Below are positions 8,785 through 18,922 of a DNA stretch of 64,000 nucleotides, piece by piece (position 1 is the stretch's first letter; every line of letters begins with the position of its first letter). Origin of the DNA: Chryseobacterium sp. CY350. GTDB taxonomy: Bacteria; Bacteroidota; Bacteroidia; Flavobacteriales; Weeksellaceae. The translations under genes were made by a program, and so were the position numbers. Where the stretch lies: positions 1,674,001 through 1,738,000 of the forward strand of contig NZ_CP116034.1 of NCBI RefSeq assembly GCF_027945075.1, given 5' to 3'. The notes under the pieces were generated by a model. That model was not told the DNA's origin. It was given only the letters and a program-made list of their open reading frames with translations, and did not search any database.

Positions 8785-9267
8785 ATGAATCCTAAAATTC
8801 GTTCGTTACTTTTTGCATGCATGGGACTTCTTTTCGGAATGTCATTAATGTATATTTATAATAATTTCATCGCTGATAAAAAAGCTCCGCTTGAAACTGA
8901 AAATGTTCCAAATGCTAATAAAAGTCAATCTGGAAGCCAAACAATTGATGAACTCACGAAAGAGAAAACAGTTATCGCCTATGTAAAACAAAATCATCAG
9001 CTTCCTGATTATTATGTTACTAAAAATGAAGCGAAAAAGCAAGGTTGGAATCCTTCCCAAGGAAATCTGTGTGAAGTTCTTCCTGGAAAAGCTATTGGTG
9101 GAGATTACTTTGGAAACAGGGAAGGAAAGCTGCCAAAAGGTGAAAACTACAGTGAAGCTGACGTTAATTACAATTGTGGAAACAGAAATGGCGACAGAAT
9201 TGTTTTTACCAAAAATGGGGAGGTTTATTTAACTAAAAATCATTACAAGAGTTTTGAAAAGCAGTAA
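8785..9267 (+). CDS. Barnase-family extracellular or anchored ribonuclease
   Basis: A 160-residue product from the ATG at 8785. An upstream ATG at 8731 lies inside the intergenic repeat and is less likely. Residues 6-24 form an uncleaved-looking signal or membrane anchor, then a polar linker, then a barnase domain (about 62-160). The catalytic set of barnase (Glu73, Arg83, Arg87, His102) is matched by Glu124 (SEADVNY), Arg134 and Arg138 (NRNGDRIVF) and His153 (KNHYKSF). LPDYYVTKNEA, GNL and GGDYFGNREGKLP also match. It should cleave RNA after guanosine. The barstar-like gene 79 bases downstream is the expected inhibitor. Confidence 0.92.
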   Translation: MNPKIRSLLFACMGLLFGMSLMYIYNNFIADKKAPLETENVPNANKSQSGSQTIDELTKEKTVIAYVKQNHQLPDYYVTKNEAKKQGWNPSQGNLCEVLPGKAIGGDYFGNREGKLPKGENYSEADVNYNCGNRNGDRIVFTKNGEVYLTKNHYKSFEKQ

Positions 9268-9345
9268 GTGAAAAGTGTAAAACATTTCTAAAAAATAAAC
9301 ATTGGAACTTTAATTAAAATAACTCAACTATTAGATACATAAACT

Positions 9346-9651
9346 ATGAACACGACATACATCGACTTCGCAGACCTTGGAGATTACGAAGATTTTTACA
9401 CCCAGCTTAAAGAAAAAATAAAACTTCCGGCGCATTTCGGGGATAATCTGGATGCACTTTCGGATGTTATTTCAGGCGAACTGGAAATGCCTTTGCACCT
9501 AGAATTTGTTAATATGAGTGTTGATCAGCTTGAAATTTTTGAAGATCTGTTAACTACTTTAGAAGACGCAGAAGATGAAGTGGAAGACTTCACTTTCACC
9601 TATTTTCTTGAGCAGTTTGAGGATGAGGATGATGAAGAAATTGCCGAATAA
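9346..9651 (+). CDS. Barstar-family ribonuclease inhibitor
   Basis: A 101-residue, very acidic protein with the barstar core: a short N-terminal strand, LKEKIKLPAHFGDNLDALSDVI (barstar's helix 1-loop-helix 2 inhibitor region), and a C-terminal acidic helix. Barstar blocks barnase by inserting an acidic helix into the active site. Lying directly downstream of the ribonuclease, on the same strand, it is the likely cytoplasmic immunity protein. The C-terminus (EDEDDEEIAE) is unusually acidic. Confidence 0.9.
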   Translation: MNTTYIDFADLGDYEDFYTQLKEKIKLPAHFGDNLDALSDVISGELEMPLHLEFVNMSVDQLEIFEDLLTTLEDAEDEVEDFTFTYFLEQFEDEDDEEIAE

Positions 9652-12542: not shown

Positions 12543-15500
12543 ATGGAAATCGAAAATTTCGACTCTGTCTTCGGTACCTCCCGCAGATTTAAAGACTGGC
12601 TTCACGACAAAACCAACCCTTTGGTATACTGTCTTCTGACCATCGACGGAAAAGATTTTTTGAGAAAAAATAGCTACACCGTAGACCTCAGCCAGAAAAC
12701 TAACGACCACGATACTTTTTATATTACCGTTCCGGATGATGCTCTTGATACATTCAAAGGCTATGTAATGGAAAATTCTAAACACCTGCTGGGAAAAGAA
12801 ATAGGCATCACATATTGGCGTTATGGTACGATCAGACATTATTTCAGAGGCATCATCGGAAATAAGAAACAAAAAAGACGAAGGCGGAGGCTACGGAGAT
12901 CTTCACATTACAGGTTATTCACCAAGTATTTTGCTTGAAAGCGGTAAAGACTGTCAGAGTTTTGAAGACAAAACCTTAGAGCAGATCATCAAAAAGGTTA
13001 CTGAGGAATATCCACAGGAAGCAAAGGTGGAAATTTCAACCATTCATCTGAACGGATACAACAAAAACCCGCTTCCCTACGCCGTACAATACAAAGAATC
13101 TGATTATCAGTTTATAAAAAGGTTAGCCATTCGGCACGGAGAGTATTTCTATTATGATGGAGAAAAACTCGTCTTCGGAAACACGGTACAACCCATCCTC
13201 AAACTAAGCGAAAATGTAGATTTAATAGATATAGAATTTGAGATGCGGATGCAGGCTCAGGATTTTACCTTCACGGGTTACGATGCCCAAAGCGGAAGCA
13301 AAATAGAAAAAGACAGCAGCAATGCAAGAAGTGAATCTAAGGATAGTCCGTTTCAGAGCATTGCGGTGATTGCGTCCAAAAAAATATTCAGGAAGAAACC
13401 CAAAATGCACTTCAACCATACAGGAATCCAAAATTGGTCGGAAGGACATTTGGCAGAAGCCGTGAGATTAGAAAAAGAAAGCCGCGAAAATCTGATGCAG
13501 GTGCGAGGAAGAAGCAAAACTCCTGAACTGAAAATCGGAGGCAGAGCCAGAATTTCAGACATCAACGGAAGGGCGATGGAAACGTACAGGATTATAGAAA
13601 TAAGACACGTTCATGAACCGGGAGACTATTACAACGAATTTGTAGGCATCCCGGATTTATTCAACGCCGCACCCTACATCGACATCGAAGCCGTACCGAA
13701 AGGTGAAGAGCAGCCTGCAAGAGTTGTAGATAATAATGATCCTATGGGAGCAGGTAGAATAAAAGTGCAGTTTCCGTGGCAGGAAGATAAAAACCATATG
13801 ACACCTTGGATAAGAACAACAACAATGTACGCAGGAGCAGGACGAGGCGATTACAAAATACCTGAAATAGGTGACGAGATTTTAGTAGGTTTTGAAAGTG
13901 GTAATGCCGAAAAACCGTTTATGTTGGGAGCGTTGTACAATGGAGCGGAAGTTTCGGGGTATCATACACCAAATAATGATATCAAAGCGCTAAGAACCCG
14001 AAGCGGAATTGAAAGTTTAGCCAATGATGCAGAAGGAAGCTGGAAGCAGAGTACTCCGGATGGAAATTTTTTATGTTTTGACGGACAGGGAAATGCGACG
14101 CTGAATGTGCCTAAAGATTTAAGCATTAATGTAGGGCAGAATTTCAATATCAATGTGGGACAAAACGTATCGTTTCTGGTAGGCTTAAAAGCTATCTACA
14201 ACATTGGCGTGCAAATGATGATGAACACCCCAATTTTAAAATATTTTATTGCAGACAATTATCATCTTCAAAGTCCTAAAACTCTCATTAATGGAGAAGG
14301 CGAAATAAAAATTGAAGCTAAAGAAACGAATTTAGCAGGAACACAGAAATTATTTATGCACTCGGATGAAATAGCAACGGTTAATTCCAAAGGGACGATT
14401 GATGTAAAAGGCAAGAATGGAACAAGCCAAAATAACATGCCTCAGAATTACAAAATGGTTCCTGTCTATGTAGATGAAAGATGCTTAGTTAGTTTTAGAC
14501 CAAAAGACGACTGGAATGGTAAAGGTTATGGTTTTGACTGGATACGTGTTGGCGATACTAAAATACCTGGTGATGTTTATTATGGGAATATAATGGGGAA
14601 GTATAATGGTGCTTATGCTTCACGAGGAGGAATTATGACAAAAGATAAAAATGAATTTGTTAAGCTGATGTCTTTATTTAATCCACATAATTATACTGTA
14701 AAAACGAAAAAAGGAAAAAAAATTAATTTGAATTATTGTGTGCCTTGGCTAAGTCTTTATCCCAAAATAATTGTTAAGAACATAAAACAACCCAATGGAA
14801 AAGTTGTGCCAACGGAACTTACATCCACTTATAAAAACACGATAGCGACACTTAGGGTAATTGTTGAGGTTAAAAAGAAGCCTGAAAAATTGCAATTGGA
14901 GTATGACGATACATTATTTAGCATTACTCATAAGCCTTTTCCTTTGGCAGTTGGTAAACACGAAATAGAAGTAACTATTATCTGTTTGAAAGAATTTGCT
15001 AAAGACCAGCCCATTAAAGTGATTGCAACATATAAAGATGCACAGGGAAAAGAAGAATTGTCTTTGGCTGGCAAGCTGAAAGTTGCAAAGAATAAAAACC
15101 GATATAAAGCAAGGATTGTTTTTATTCAAGTTTCGACAAATATTGGAAATAGTAAAAGAACAGGACAACCTTCAGGAAGAGAATCTGAATTAAAAAAATA
15201 TATGAATCAGGCTTTGGTAAATCCTCATTTTGAAAAAACATTAACTTTAGATTTAAGCCTGGACGTAAATCCTGTTACAAAGCAAAGACATAATCGAAAG
15301 ACTAATTTTAACAGAATAGTTACTCCTATAAATAGCCCAACAGGAGGTTCAGACAAGTGGATTTATGATGGTACTGAAGATAAGATTTATAAGTTCTTAA
15401 ATGAGGAATTGTACAAACAATACGGTACAAAATATCAGAATATTTATAAGGTCTATTTTATTGATGAAAGTAATGGGCATTTAAATAGTAGTGGAAATTG

Positions 15501-15783
15501 GGAGGGAGCTGTAGCAGGAATTGGAAGAACAATGAAAGATTCTAAAATAAAAACAATATTGGTTTATTCTTCTGGTTTTGCTGACAGTACCCTTGCCCAT
15601 GAGGTTTTTCATTCAATGGGCTTATATCATAGTTTTGACAATAATAGTAATTTTACTTTTGAGTTTGAAAAAACAGATAACATTATGGATTATTCAGATA
15701 TTGCCCCAGTTCCCATTACTGTAATAAGTACTTATCATTGGCAATGGAAAACTTTACAGGGTAGAGCGGGAGAAAAAGATTAA
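12543..15783 (+). pseudogene. Evolved VgrG with C-terminal metzincin domain, frameshifted at an A6 tract
   Basis: Two overlapping frames make one VgrG spike protein. The first runs from 12543 and ends at 12938; the second is open from before 12823 to 15783. The switch is at A6 (12871-12876). Removing one A joins IIGNKKQK to DEGGGYGDLHITGYSPS and gives one protein of 1,079 residues. About residues 1-470 are the gp27/gp5-like VgrG core (PWIRTTTMYAGAGRG; GDEILVGFESGNAEKPFMLG), followed by the repetitive beta needle (DLSINVGQNFNINVG). The last 400 or so residues are an added effector part, ending in the metzincin zinc site HEVFHSMGLYH (about 1019-1029) and a Met-turn NIMDYS (about 1048). Both halves are undamaged, so the break is recent, phase-variable or a read error. 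Confidence 0.88.
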
Positions 15784-15785
15784 TT

Positions 15786-16232
15786 ATGAAAAATATAATT
15801 TATTTAATATTGGCCATATTATTTATTTCTTGCACTAAAAAAGAAAGAAATACTAATGTTAAAAACCAATATCAGCAAGACATTCTTAATCATAGATTTC
15901 TTTCCGATGTAGTACTTGGAAGCGAAAATGATATTTTAAAAATAAATTTATGGCGAGATAATAGAAACCATTACTTCAAATCGGCAGGAATATCAACAAG
16001 TTTTTTGAATGATAGTTTTGGTAGCGGAAATTTTGCACCTTGTGGAAATGATTATTTTATTGATGTTAATGGAAAATTTATACTTTATGATACTAATAAA
16101 ATAACGATTTCTGCTGATTCTCTAACATATTCAGGAGAAGATAAAAGACCAACAGCATATAAAAATGGAGAAGAAACCGATTATTCTATTTCCAAAAAAG
16201 GCGATACTATTACACTTACAAAAATTGATTAA
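15786..16232 (+). CDS. Small lipoprotein, candidate immunity protein for the VgrG protease domain
   Basis: A 148-residue lipoprotein: MKNIIYLILAILFISC with lipobox Cys16, then a polar beta-rich body with no recognised family. The start lies two bases after the vgrG stop, the classical place for an immunity gene. A lipoprotein in the periplasm would suit a protease delivered there by a T6SS spike. Function is inferred from position only. Confidence 0.65.
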   Translation: MKNIIYLILAILFISCTKKERNTNVKNQYQQDILNHRFLSDVVLGSENDILKINLWRDNRNHYFKSAGISTSFLNDSFGSGNFAPCGNDYFIDVNGKFILYDTNKITISADSLTYSGEDKRPTAYKNGEETDYSISKKGDTITLTKID

Positions 16233-16235
16233 ATA

Positions 16236-17198
16236 ATGAAAAGAATAATTTATATAATTTCCTTATTGTTCATAATTTCCTGTAATTCACAGGATAAAAA
16301 GCCTGACAGCAAAATATTAGATAAACCACAACCAGTAAAGCATAATACAATGAATAACGAATACGATTATAAAAAACTAGTCAGTTCCAAGACAGAATAC
16401 TTTGATATTAAAAAATTTTACCAAAATAATGAAGATGGCTTGGGAAAAACTTATGAAACTGAAAATGGAACAAAAACAGAAGAGTCTGCCGGTGATGAAG
16501 GAGGATGGTTCATGTCAAATTCTACGCTCAAAAGTTCACTCTTTACAATTCATAAAGAATTTAATTTAAAAGGTATTATCCAAGAAAAATGGGTTAATTT
16601 TAGAAATGGTGGCGGAGCCGTAGGCATAAAATATAAGTTCGATGATTTAGGTAAATTGATAAAAGAAGATGATACGGATAAGAATTTTAAAATTACCCCT
16701 CAAGATGTGATAAAATTCTGTCAAGAAAATAATATTGATTTATTTTCTGATTATACATTTATTGAAAGATTTATAGATGAAAAAACAAAAGAAAGTTTTT
16801 ATAATGTCAATTATAGAGGAAAATACGAAGAGAAGTTTGGTGCAAGAATCGTAATTCAGTTAGACGGAAATTCGGGAGAGATACAAAAAGTAATCTGCAT
16901 CAACGGAAAGCATAATGATTCCGTAGAAACTTTGTATGATATAAAGGAAGAGAAGGAAAAATCTGCAATGATTTATAAATCTTATCAAGGCAAAGACTAC
17001 AATCAAGCAGAATGGATAGTTTTTGAAGAAAAAAAATATGAAGCCTACTGCAAAAGAACAGGGAGACCTTATACACCCAAAAATCAGAGGCAAGAACCAA
17101 GAACTGATAACCAAGGATACAAAAGTCCTTTTTTAGCCGATGATTTTGAGAAAGGCACTGACAATACACCAAAGAAGAAGAAAGGATATTGGGGATAA
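16236..17198 (+). CDS. Lipoprotein, paralogue of the 17.6 kb fusion protein; candidate immunity
   Basis: A 320-residue lipoprotein with signal MKRIIYIISLLFIISC (Cys16). The stretch IKYKFDDLGKLIKED...VIKFCQEN around residues 130-165 matches IWYEFDENGKLIKET...VIKFAETQ in the protein at 17621-18922. YKSYQGKDYNQAEWIVFEE matches YQTYEGRYYTKTEWDEFYK of the same protein. The two are paralogues. FDDxGKLI-type segments resemble MORN-like beta repeats. It lies 3 bases after the previous gene, and so in the vgrG operon. Its C-terminus (KKKKGYWG) is basic and unlike its paralogue. Immunity is inferred. Confidence 0.65.
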   Translation: MKRIIYIISLLFIISCNSQDKKPDSKILDKPQPVKHNTMNNEYDYKKLVSSKTEYFDIKKFYQNNEDGLGKTYETENGTKTEESAGDEGGWFMSNSTLKSSLFTIHKEFNLKGIIQEKWVNFRNGGGAVGIKYKFDDLGKLIKEDDTDKNFKITPQDVIKFCQENNIDLFSDYTFIERFIDEKTKESFYNVNYRGKYEEKFGARIVIQLDGNSGEIQKVICINGKHNDSVETLYDIKEEKEKSAMIYKSYQGKDYNQAEWIVFEEKKYEAYCKRTGRPYTPKNQRQEPRTDNQGYKSPFLADDFEKGTDNTPKKKKGYWG

Positions 17199-17216: not shown

Positions 17217-17609
17217 TGAATAAATTATCAATTCTAATTTCGCCTCTGGAAAAAACAGTACCACATTAGCAGACGAACCGCAGCATGCTCTAGGATTATA
17301 TCACACACACCCTGATGCAAACATAATACGACTGGATAATCTTACTCCACAAACCTCTCACTCAATTGAATCTCCTCGTGATAATCATGCTTATATATTG
17401 GGATAGACAATAGCAAATGAATGTTTGATGGAATAAATTATGTTCCTTACGTATTTAATGAAAATGTAGCAATTGACAAAAAATTTATATACCATCATGC
17501 TCATGCAGATCTTCTTCTAGCCACGTTAAATATTATGAGCTATAGTGGGCATGCAAGAAAATATACATGGCATTGGCAATGGGTAAAAGCAAATAATAAT
17601 ATTCATTAA
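17217..17609 (+). pseudogene. Decayed, truncated second metzincin toxin domain
   Basis: In the frame of 17224, the sequence reads INSNFASGKNSTTL, then ADEPQHALGLYHTHPD, which lines up with the intact zinc site of the VgrG effector (AHEVFHSMGLYHSF) but has Asp in place of the first His. That frame stops at TAG 17404-17406. Another frame from 17421 goes on to ATLNIMSYSG...YTWHWQWVKAN, matching NIMDYS and STYHWQWKT of the effector. So the remnant keeps only the last third of a toxin domain, has lost a zinc ligand and is split over two frames. It looks like an orphan toxin cassette displaced by a newer one. Confidence 0.75.
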
Positions 17610-17620
17610 AAAAATCAATT

Positions 17621-18922
17621 ATGAAAAATATAATATTAATCTGTGTTTGTATATTATCCATTAATAACTGCAACGCACAAAAAGGAAAACAAAAGCATGC
17701 TACAAATAAAACCATCACTAAAAAAAAGAATATGAACCTCTATCAATATCTAATAAATAAGTCTTTTGAAAAAATAAACCCTAATCAAAGAGAGGGAAGA
17801 GAAACTTTACCAAATGGAAATTTTCTTGAAGTGATTGTAGCTAAATCTGGCTCCTCATTTAATGAAATTATTAAGGATAGTTATTATCTAATTTATAAAG
17901 GATATTATCCCAATGGCAACATTCGTAATAAAGGTATTTCTTTCAATCAAGATACTTTTCAAATGGGCATTTGGTATGAGTTTGACGAAAATGGGAAACT
18001 TATAAAAGAAACCGACTATGACGAAGGTTATGATTTTACTTTGGAAAATGTTATAAAGTTCGCAGAAACCCAAAAAGACATTCGCAGATATCAAGACCTA
18101 AATAATGTTGTTTTTCCACAAGGCGAATACACAGTATTAAATCCAGGGTCAAACAATACCATAAGAAAAGAAATCCGAGAAGGAAAAAATGTCTGGGTAT
18201 TAGAATATAATTTTTCAGAAAGAGAACAAAGTATGATGCAAGATGGTAAAATCGTAGGCAGAGAATATATTCAAATATATACAGAAATTGTTCTGGATGG
18301 TAAAACAGGGAAAATATTATCCAACAAAAGAATAGGTGAAAAAGAAGATTCGGTGGTACAATCTGAGAAAAAAAGAAATACATCCCTACTTGCCAATCCC
18401 GAAGAAAAAGGTACATATCATAAACGCGAACTTGGCACTGCCTACGCTTCCCAATCAGAACTAAAAGCTAACAAAAACATTTATCAAACATATGAAGGTA
18501 GATACTACACAAAAACAGAGTGGGATGAGTTTTACAAAACTTTATCTTGGGTAGACCGTTTATTTTTAGGAAAAAGTTATAATATGCCACAAAAACTCAC
18601 AGAAAAAGCATTGCTACTCTGCGACAAAGGAGCAAAACTAAGTCAGCTAAAAGTAACCAGCCAAACATTCAGCAAAGCAGAGGATAAATTGGTTGCCACA
18701 GAACAGGACAAACGAGCCGAAACCAATATCCCAAATTTTGGGGTTTGTGCTATTACTAAAAGCAAATGTAATCCTGCTGTAATAAAATGGGAGAAAACCA
18801 CAGAAAAAGATGTGATCAACAATTATAAAATCCTTACAGATGAAAGCACTTGTCAATGTTCCGTGGGAGGAAAAATTTCTGTTCAGCATAAAGGTCACAA
18901 TGAAAAACATGACATAGTTTAA
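17621..18922 (+). CDS. Immunity-like lipoprotein fused to a DUF4280 PAAR-like domain
   Basis: A 433-residue protein of two parts. Residues 1-321 begin with an export signal (MKNIILICVCILSINNC) and are paralogous to the lipoprotein at 16236-17198. Residues 322-433 (from ATG 18584, MPQKLTEKALLLCDKGA) have the pattern of a stand-alone DUF4280 PAAR-like spike tip: CDKGAKLSQLKVTSQ, LVATEQDK, NIPNFGVC, KCNPAVIKW, STCQCSVGGKI. DUF4280 proteins cap the VgrG needle of Bacteroidota T6SS and must stay in the cytoplasm for loading. A secretion signal on the same chain is therefore odd. The internal ATG may also be used as a start. A strong terminator follows. Confidence 0.8.
   Translation: MKNIILICVCILSINNCNAQKGKQKHATNKTITKKKNMNLYQYLINKSFEKINPNQREGRETLPNGNFLEVIVAKSGSSFNEIIKDSYYLIYKGYYPNGNIRNKGISFNQDTFQMGIWYEFDENGKLIKETDYDEGYDFTLENVIKFAETQKDIRRYQDLNNVVFPQGEYTVLNPGSNNTIRKEIREGKNVWVLEYNFSEREQSMMQDGKIVGREYIQIYTEIVLDGKTGKILSNKRIGEKEDSVVQSEKKRNTSLLANPEEKGTYHKRELGTAYASQSELKANKNIYQTYEGRYYTKTEWDEFYKTLSWVDRLFLGKSYNMPQKLTEKALLLCDKGAKLSQLKVTSQTFSKAEDKLVATEQDKRAETNIPNFGVCAITKSKCNPAVIKWEKTTEKDVINNYKILTDESTCQCSVGGKISVQHKGHNEKHDIV

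Follow-up and report, generated by a model that had tools for sequence, protein, structure and literature searches.

We analysed a window of 64,000 nucleotides from Chryseobacterium sp. CY350 (NCBI RefSeq assembly GCF_027945075.1, contig NZ_CP116034.1, positions 1,674,001 to 1,738,000), in which a gene for VgrG, the spike protein of the type VI secretion system (T6SS), carries a C-terminal tail and is followed by two lipoprotein genes. The open reading frame at 12823–15783 on the forward strand encodes 986 amino acids (aa), with VgrG domains and then the 467-residue tail. A first-pass annotation, made from the letters alone, had read the tail as a metzincin protease and the nearest lipoprotein as its likely immunity protein. 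Our analysis supports a predicted metzincin tail, and across the phylum the tail is paired with the family of the second lipoprotein. The features, in window coordinates, are as follows.

12543–12938, + strand: VgrG N-terminal piece (residues 1–112 of paralogues), in a frame that differs from the main VgrG frame
12823–14379, + strand: VgrG spike core, main frame (Pfam PF05954, PF04717)
14380–15783, + strand: effector tail, 467 aa, with three predicted domains; residues 1–31 are mostly of low confidence
14479–14754, + strand: tail N-terminal domain, F-R-P...W-G-x-Y-G-F-D-W-x-R-x-G-D, conserved in the alignment
14767–15084, + strand: predicted beta-rich domain directly ahead of the protease, from predicted secondary structure
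15085–15783, + strand: predicted metzincin catalytic domain, from structure prediction and domain alignment
15598–15630, + strand: zinc site HEVFHSMGLYH, from motif and conservation
15679–15696, + strand: Met-turn NIMDYS, from motif and conservation
15786–16232, + strand: small lipoprotein, encoded between effector and conserved partner and itself not kept alongside the effector
16236–17198, + strand: predicted immunity lipoprotein with MORN_2-like features, a PepSY-like C-terminal domain in relatives and a variable C-terminal extension

The VgrG gene and its predicted metzincin tail

A Pfam search with the 986-aa product gave matches to Phage_base_V (1.5e-23) and Phage_GPD (7.6e-18). VgrG core and tail lie in one polypeptide, as in an evolved VgrG, save that the window copy of the gene is split, with the first ~110 residues in another frame, a point absent from the first-pass annotation. 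The core at 12823–14379 aligns with two other VgrGs of this genome from their residue 108 onward, at 72% and 69% identity, and the product of 12543–12938 is 80% and 79% identical to residues 1–112 of two same-genome VgrGs. The split could reflect either a true mutation or a fault of the assembly; unsplit relatives exist. The G+C content is 41% in the VgrG core, 33% in the tail, and 26% and 31% in the lipoprotein genes at 15786–16232 and 16236–17198.

Metzincins combine an HExxHxxGxxH/D zinc site with a downstream Met-turn, and the tail has both, as the first-pass annotation had noted. The zinc motif alone is weak evidence because, although only ~4e-5 chance matches are expected per 467 residues, ~0.7 are expected in a six-frame genome. 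What takes it beyond chance is the Met-turn at the right distance together with conservation and the predicted fold. We found 122 relatives, 120 of which were listed, and the zinc ligands are conserved in most of them: HExxHx5H, sought anywhere in the protein, occurs in 116 of the 120 and the full motif in 105, the window protein included. Among representatives at 70% identity the corresponding counts are 43/46 and 33/46, with a Met-turn pattern in 41/46. When 49 of the 120 proteins were aligned (alignment A1), H407, E408 and H411 were invariant and H417 was present in at least 90%; this alignment excludes P0111–P0113, which favours a near-invariant zinc site. In the tail N-terminal domain F39, G51 and F52 are invariant and R40, W54, R56 and D59 nearly so. 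The excluded P0111, P0112 and P0113 (814–837 aa) have the same first domain and no HExxH, and judging by their sequences are likely inactive paralogues.

The metzincin fold was recognized in a predicted model by domain alignment, with fragilysin and ADAM proteases among the fold neighbours. Domain boundaries were read by eye from the secondary structure of this model, and several alignments to pro-fragilysin start at tail residue 151–152, that is, within the beta-rich domain. Pfam and NCBIfam searches with the tail gave only matches under the cut-offs. An assignment to M12B (reprolysin) was dropped because Reprolysin_4 scored 18.2 bits against a curated cut-off of 22, and the tail was filed as a metzincin. 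Together, the VgrG Pfam domains, the motif and the predicted fold bear out the earlier claim of a metzincin domain carried on a Bacteroidota VgrG.

The partner lipoprotein family

The neighbours of the effector were compared in two sets, named loci and 320 genomes of the window genome's taxonomic family. Of 98 named loci, all found by one Met-turn pattern that misses effectors without it, 80 were examined; 78 have an effector frame, and in 75 a gene follows within 500 bp downstream. Because profile A2 includes seven effector-adjacent genes (L014, L015, L028, L030, L032, L034, L036), named-locus counts were redone with profile A3, built from the window lipoprotein (16236–17198) and proteins found by sequence alone, with position ignored; class counts (73, 160, 158) use genes of at least 90 aa. 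The immediate downstream gene belongs to the partner family in 67/75 named loci, as compared with 8/158 genes elsewhere in the loci, and 36/160 genes further downstream also belong to it. In the family genomes, where 81 top-listed effectors and 150 listed lipoproteins were compared, a member lies downstream of at least 67 of the 81 effectors, and at least 58 are within 150 bp of the match end. The partner is thus conserved and adjacent, as in a T6SS effector–immunity pair. Several diverged immunity lipoproteins often stand side by side next to the effector.

A lipobox, by a strict pattern, was found in 51/75 downstream genes, 8/57 upstream genes and 44/318 others. In an alignment of 58 family members (A4: the window lipoprotein and 57 of 70 matching downstream genes, with 13 near-copies and short frames left out) 55 have the lipidation Cys and all 58 have Gly 214; the 13 include L079 and L083, whose called starts lack a signal, which slightly flatters the count of 55. 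A C-terminal extension, YKTxxGKxYTxxEWxxYEEK... (window 16953–17198; P0152–P0161), is common to otherwise diverged immunity lipoproteins.

Of these 58 members, 32 match MORN_2 and six match PepSY at E ≤ 0.05 (best PepSY match 8.4e-5). Two relatives exceed the PF03413 cut-off of 24, at 26.2 and 25.1 bits; L063 lies directly after its effector and L060 is second after its effector, in an array. Profile comparison by hhalign against 12 PepSY pieces gave 54.6% (A4) and 21.2% (A2) over only 17 columns around DGxTGKV, with 0.3% and 0.2% for a reversed template and 0.0–0.2% for 20 column shuffles. A fold search with the predicted model of the window lipoprotein gave no clear match.

Spread, secretion machinery and neighbouring genes

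The effector occurs in at least 107 of the 320 family genomes; the genome searches scored 5, 7 and 5 candidates per genome at most, and genome counts are therefore lower bounds. The named loci include ones from Chryseobacterium, Flavobacterium, Aquimarina, Chitinophaga, Pedobacter, Prevotella, Porphyromonas, Dysgonomonas and one Serratia. In the Serratia locus (L149) the relative is part of a 1325-aa frame and the downstream gene is outside the immunity family; it is possibly a transfer out of the phylum. Among the 49 aligned relatives the carriers are VgrG domains (22), TssD, also called Hcp (16), LysM (2) and DUF4280 (1), and stand-alone metzincin effector genes also occur, so the search for the domain elsewhere proposed in the first-pass annotation did find it on other carriers and by itself.

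Stand-alone effectors, and other genes too, start with a short N-terminal region, MSRTRIVKGxYTKxS...YSxExI. Similar starts are present in open frames of L028, L029, L043, L123, L125, L129, L130 and L148. Among 34 distinct frames of this kind in the examined loci, HExxHx5H is found in 25 and absent from nine, one of which (L142) is a cut-off metzincin frame. Pfam had nothing matching the region in the three proteins scanned (L030, L036, L043). This N-terminus is a candidate loading marker for cargo of T6SSiii, the T6SS of Bacteroidota.

In Chryseobacterium, T6SSiii is reported to be ubiquitous, with its genes distributed over as many as four or five loci (PMC10781749). Our check covered TssC, TssD, TssF and TssK, and the window genome has two TssC, six TssD, a TssF above the cut-off and a TssK-like match below it, as well as six Phage_base_V matches. 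The TssC genes (G000 C1, 3375404 and 3801352) each follow a small gene judged by eye to be TssB-like, and the second lies away from the main T6SSiii cluster. A TssC match was found in 100/107 effector-bearing genomes versus 104/213 without the effector (Fisher p 5e-17) and, outside the genus, in 19/26 versus 15/121 (p 1e-9); shared ancestry inflates both p values.

Two further features lie just downstream of the pair.

17239–17606, + strand: C-terminal remnant of a second metzincin effector, spread over two frames (17239–17316 and 17442–17606)
17621–18922, + strand: second immunity-family lipoprotein (immunity profile E 1.8e-37), fused to a C-terminal DUF4280 (8e-17)

The remnant has a best E of 4e-8 against 14 family members, as compared with 6e-4 for the best of 30 shuffles. 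From its sequence, the locus looks like an effector replacement with retained immunity. Elsewhere in the window (8785–9651), a small exported barnase-like protein is followed by a barstar-like gene, both judged by eye.

Proposed function and comparison with known systems

What the computations show directly is the motif, a predicted fold, conservation of the ligands, fusion to parts of the T6SS spike or tube, and a phylum-wide pairing with one lipoprotein family. On this basis we consider it probable that the tail is a periplasmic metzincin effector delivered by T6SSiii, with a lipid-anchored and perhaps inhibitor-like immunity lipoprotein. The tail would travel on the VgrG spike and, as a predicted zinc metzincin, would cleave periplasmic proteins of rival bacteria, and the lipoprotein at 16236–17198 would block it in the producer's own envelope. 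The first-pass annotation had derived a periplasmic target from the small lipoprotein at 15786–16232; that basis fell away and the target stands as the best inference because a lipoprotein partner is seen across the phylum. With a defined partner, target, mode of inhibition and specificity become directly testable.

Propeptides of secreted peptidases can contain PepSY domains, which are known to be inhibitory. Because partner relatives have a PepSY-like domain, the lipoprotein may act as a propeptide-like inhibitor through it. We give a little under even chances to the fuller proposal of a phylum-wide family of T6SSiii metzincin toxins in which propeptide inhibitors have become lipoproteins and serve as the immunity proteins, with a membrane-tethered PepSY plugging the active site. 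The PepSY step is a hypothesis because the window lipoprotein itself gives no PepSY match in Pfam, the fold search was unclear and the profile match spans 17 columns. If it is true, the pair works on the principle of a protease and its prodomain, now split over two genes as toxin and antidote, and interbacterial immunity is linked to zymogen control.

Several further observations weigh against the proposed function. The split VgrG means that the window copy may not be delivered, and 7/107 effector-bearing genomes have no TssC match. Because P0111–P0113 lack HExxH and P0120 lacks the third His, some family members are not proteases. Whole-model Foldseek scores are poor (best TM 0.25–0.26, rmsd 16–18 Å), so that the fold call rests on the domain alignment. 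As to the pairing, an extra lipoprotein gene stands between effector and partner here, 14/81 effectors have no family member among the matches listed, and 8/75 named loci do not have the partner family as the next gene, although in two of these eight (L075, L091) it is the second gene. The partner family is also broader than the effector (at least 164/320 versus at least 107 genomes), and for 53/150 listed members there is no listed effector within 6 kb; such members could be orphans, weak matches or partners of effectors outside the list.

The first-pass annotation had named the small lipoprotein as the natural immunity candidate. It was right about the position, since this gene starts two bases past the effector stop (15783 to 15786) and has a lipoprotein-type start, and a small extra gene is in the equivalent place in L075 and L091. 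By contrast, its family has 38 matches in the 320 genomes, of which one, the gene itself, is beside any of the 81 listed effectors, whereas the family of the second lipoprotein adjoins the effector in most loci, including five with 65–70% identical tails (L072–L074, L076, L077). The small family does not accompany the effector, and we find it quite improbable that this gene is the cognate immunity gene in this lineage, with the second lipoprotein a leftover or a guard against relatives. As a practical rule, the candidate immunity gene here is the conserved second gene rather than the nearest one. That the window locus is dead, with only its immunity genes still used, is a real possibility about which we are rather doubtful: the N-terminal 110 residues of VgrG in another frame and the decayed second effector nearby would fit a dead locus in which the split is a real mutation, while the reading frames of tail and lipoproteins are intact, an assembly error could explain the split and an identical 986-aa product occurs on two contigs (which may be from one strain). 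A dead window locus would be compatible with our preferred explanation, which applies to the family.

Other functions for the protease were also weighed. Fragilysin and ADAM proteases as fold neighbours, and the trans-kingdom role proposed for Pseudomonas VgrG2b (PMC6899460), could point to eukaryotic hosts or predators as targets, with the lipoprotein an accessory; a diverging lipoprotein beside the effector phylum-wide, often in several copies, is instead a pattern of self-protection, which makes this alternative decidedly unlikely. Polymorphic toxins have known releasing peptidases (PMC3482391), and the domain might, like PVC metallopeptidases, free cargo or mature the spike rather than act as a toxin. 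This seems highly improbable given that the metzincin domain forms the very end of the protein, leaving no cargo beyond it, is also encoded by stand-alone genes and comes with a lipoprotein partner.

A Bacteroidota T6SS metzincin effector family was not found in open-licence PMC literature, judged from titles and abstract starts of part of the matches, and may be described elsewhere. Going by title and the start of the abstract, none of the papers listed for metzincins with type VI secretion dealt with a T6SS effector; literature on reprolysin and T6SS gave candidates in Salmonella (PMC10469887).

As a comparison, several known systems share parts of this arrangement. Fragilysin, the Bacteroides fragilis toxin, is likewise a metzincin with a domain ahead of the protease and is among the best fold matches, but it has 11–14% identity to the tail and no T6SS carrier. 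It is a zymogen exported via a signal peptide. Listeria Mtz-Tim also pairs a secreted metzincin with a lipoprotein of inhibitor-like structure; it is phage-derived, Gram-positive and TIMP-like, targets the producer's own cell wall and involves no T6SS (PMC8235301). Tox-MPTase1-5 and PVC metallopeptidases are C-terminal zincin domains in modular polymorphic toxins, but they are described as HExxH or HExxHxxQ-E zincins, and the part of the source covered has no mention of reprolysin and tabulates no immunity family for MPTases (PMC3482391). The Reprolysin_4 candidates of Salmonella SPI-6 and SPI-19 (Salmonella pathogenicity islands) are T6SS cargo with an M12B-like motif, and an adjacent gene, whose product has a signal peptide in one listed strain, has been put forward as their immunity gene; compared by description, they differ in being 243-aa cargo, assumed to be a peptidoglycan amidase, and the text compared speaks of no fusion to a spike or tube protein (PMC10469887). 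In the VgrG2b/Tpe1 pairs of Pseudomonas, Acinetobacter and Salmonella an HExxH zinc metallopeptidase is a VgrG tail or cargo and acts in the periplasm, with an immunity protein in the envelope that is a predicted lipoprotein in Enterobacteriaceae (PMC6899460, PMC12992299). For VgrG2b only one domain is reported, and its structural neighbours are thermolysin-like (PMC6899460), whereas the window tail is predicted to comprise three domains, has a metzincin site followed by a Met-turn, and is paired with a partner family that shows MORN_2 and PepSY-like features; the two are set apart by description only.
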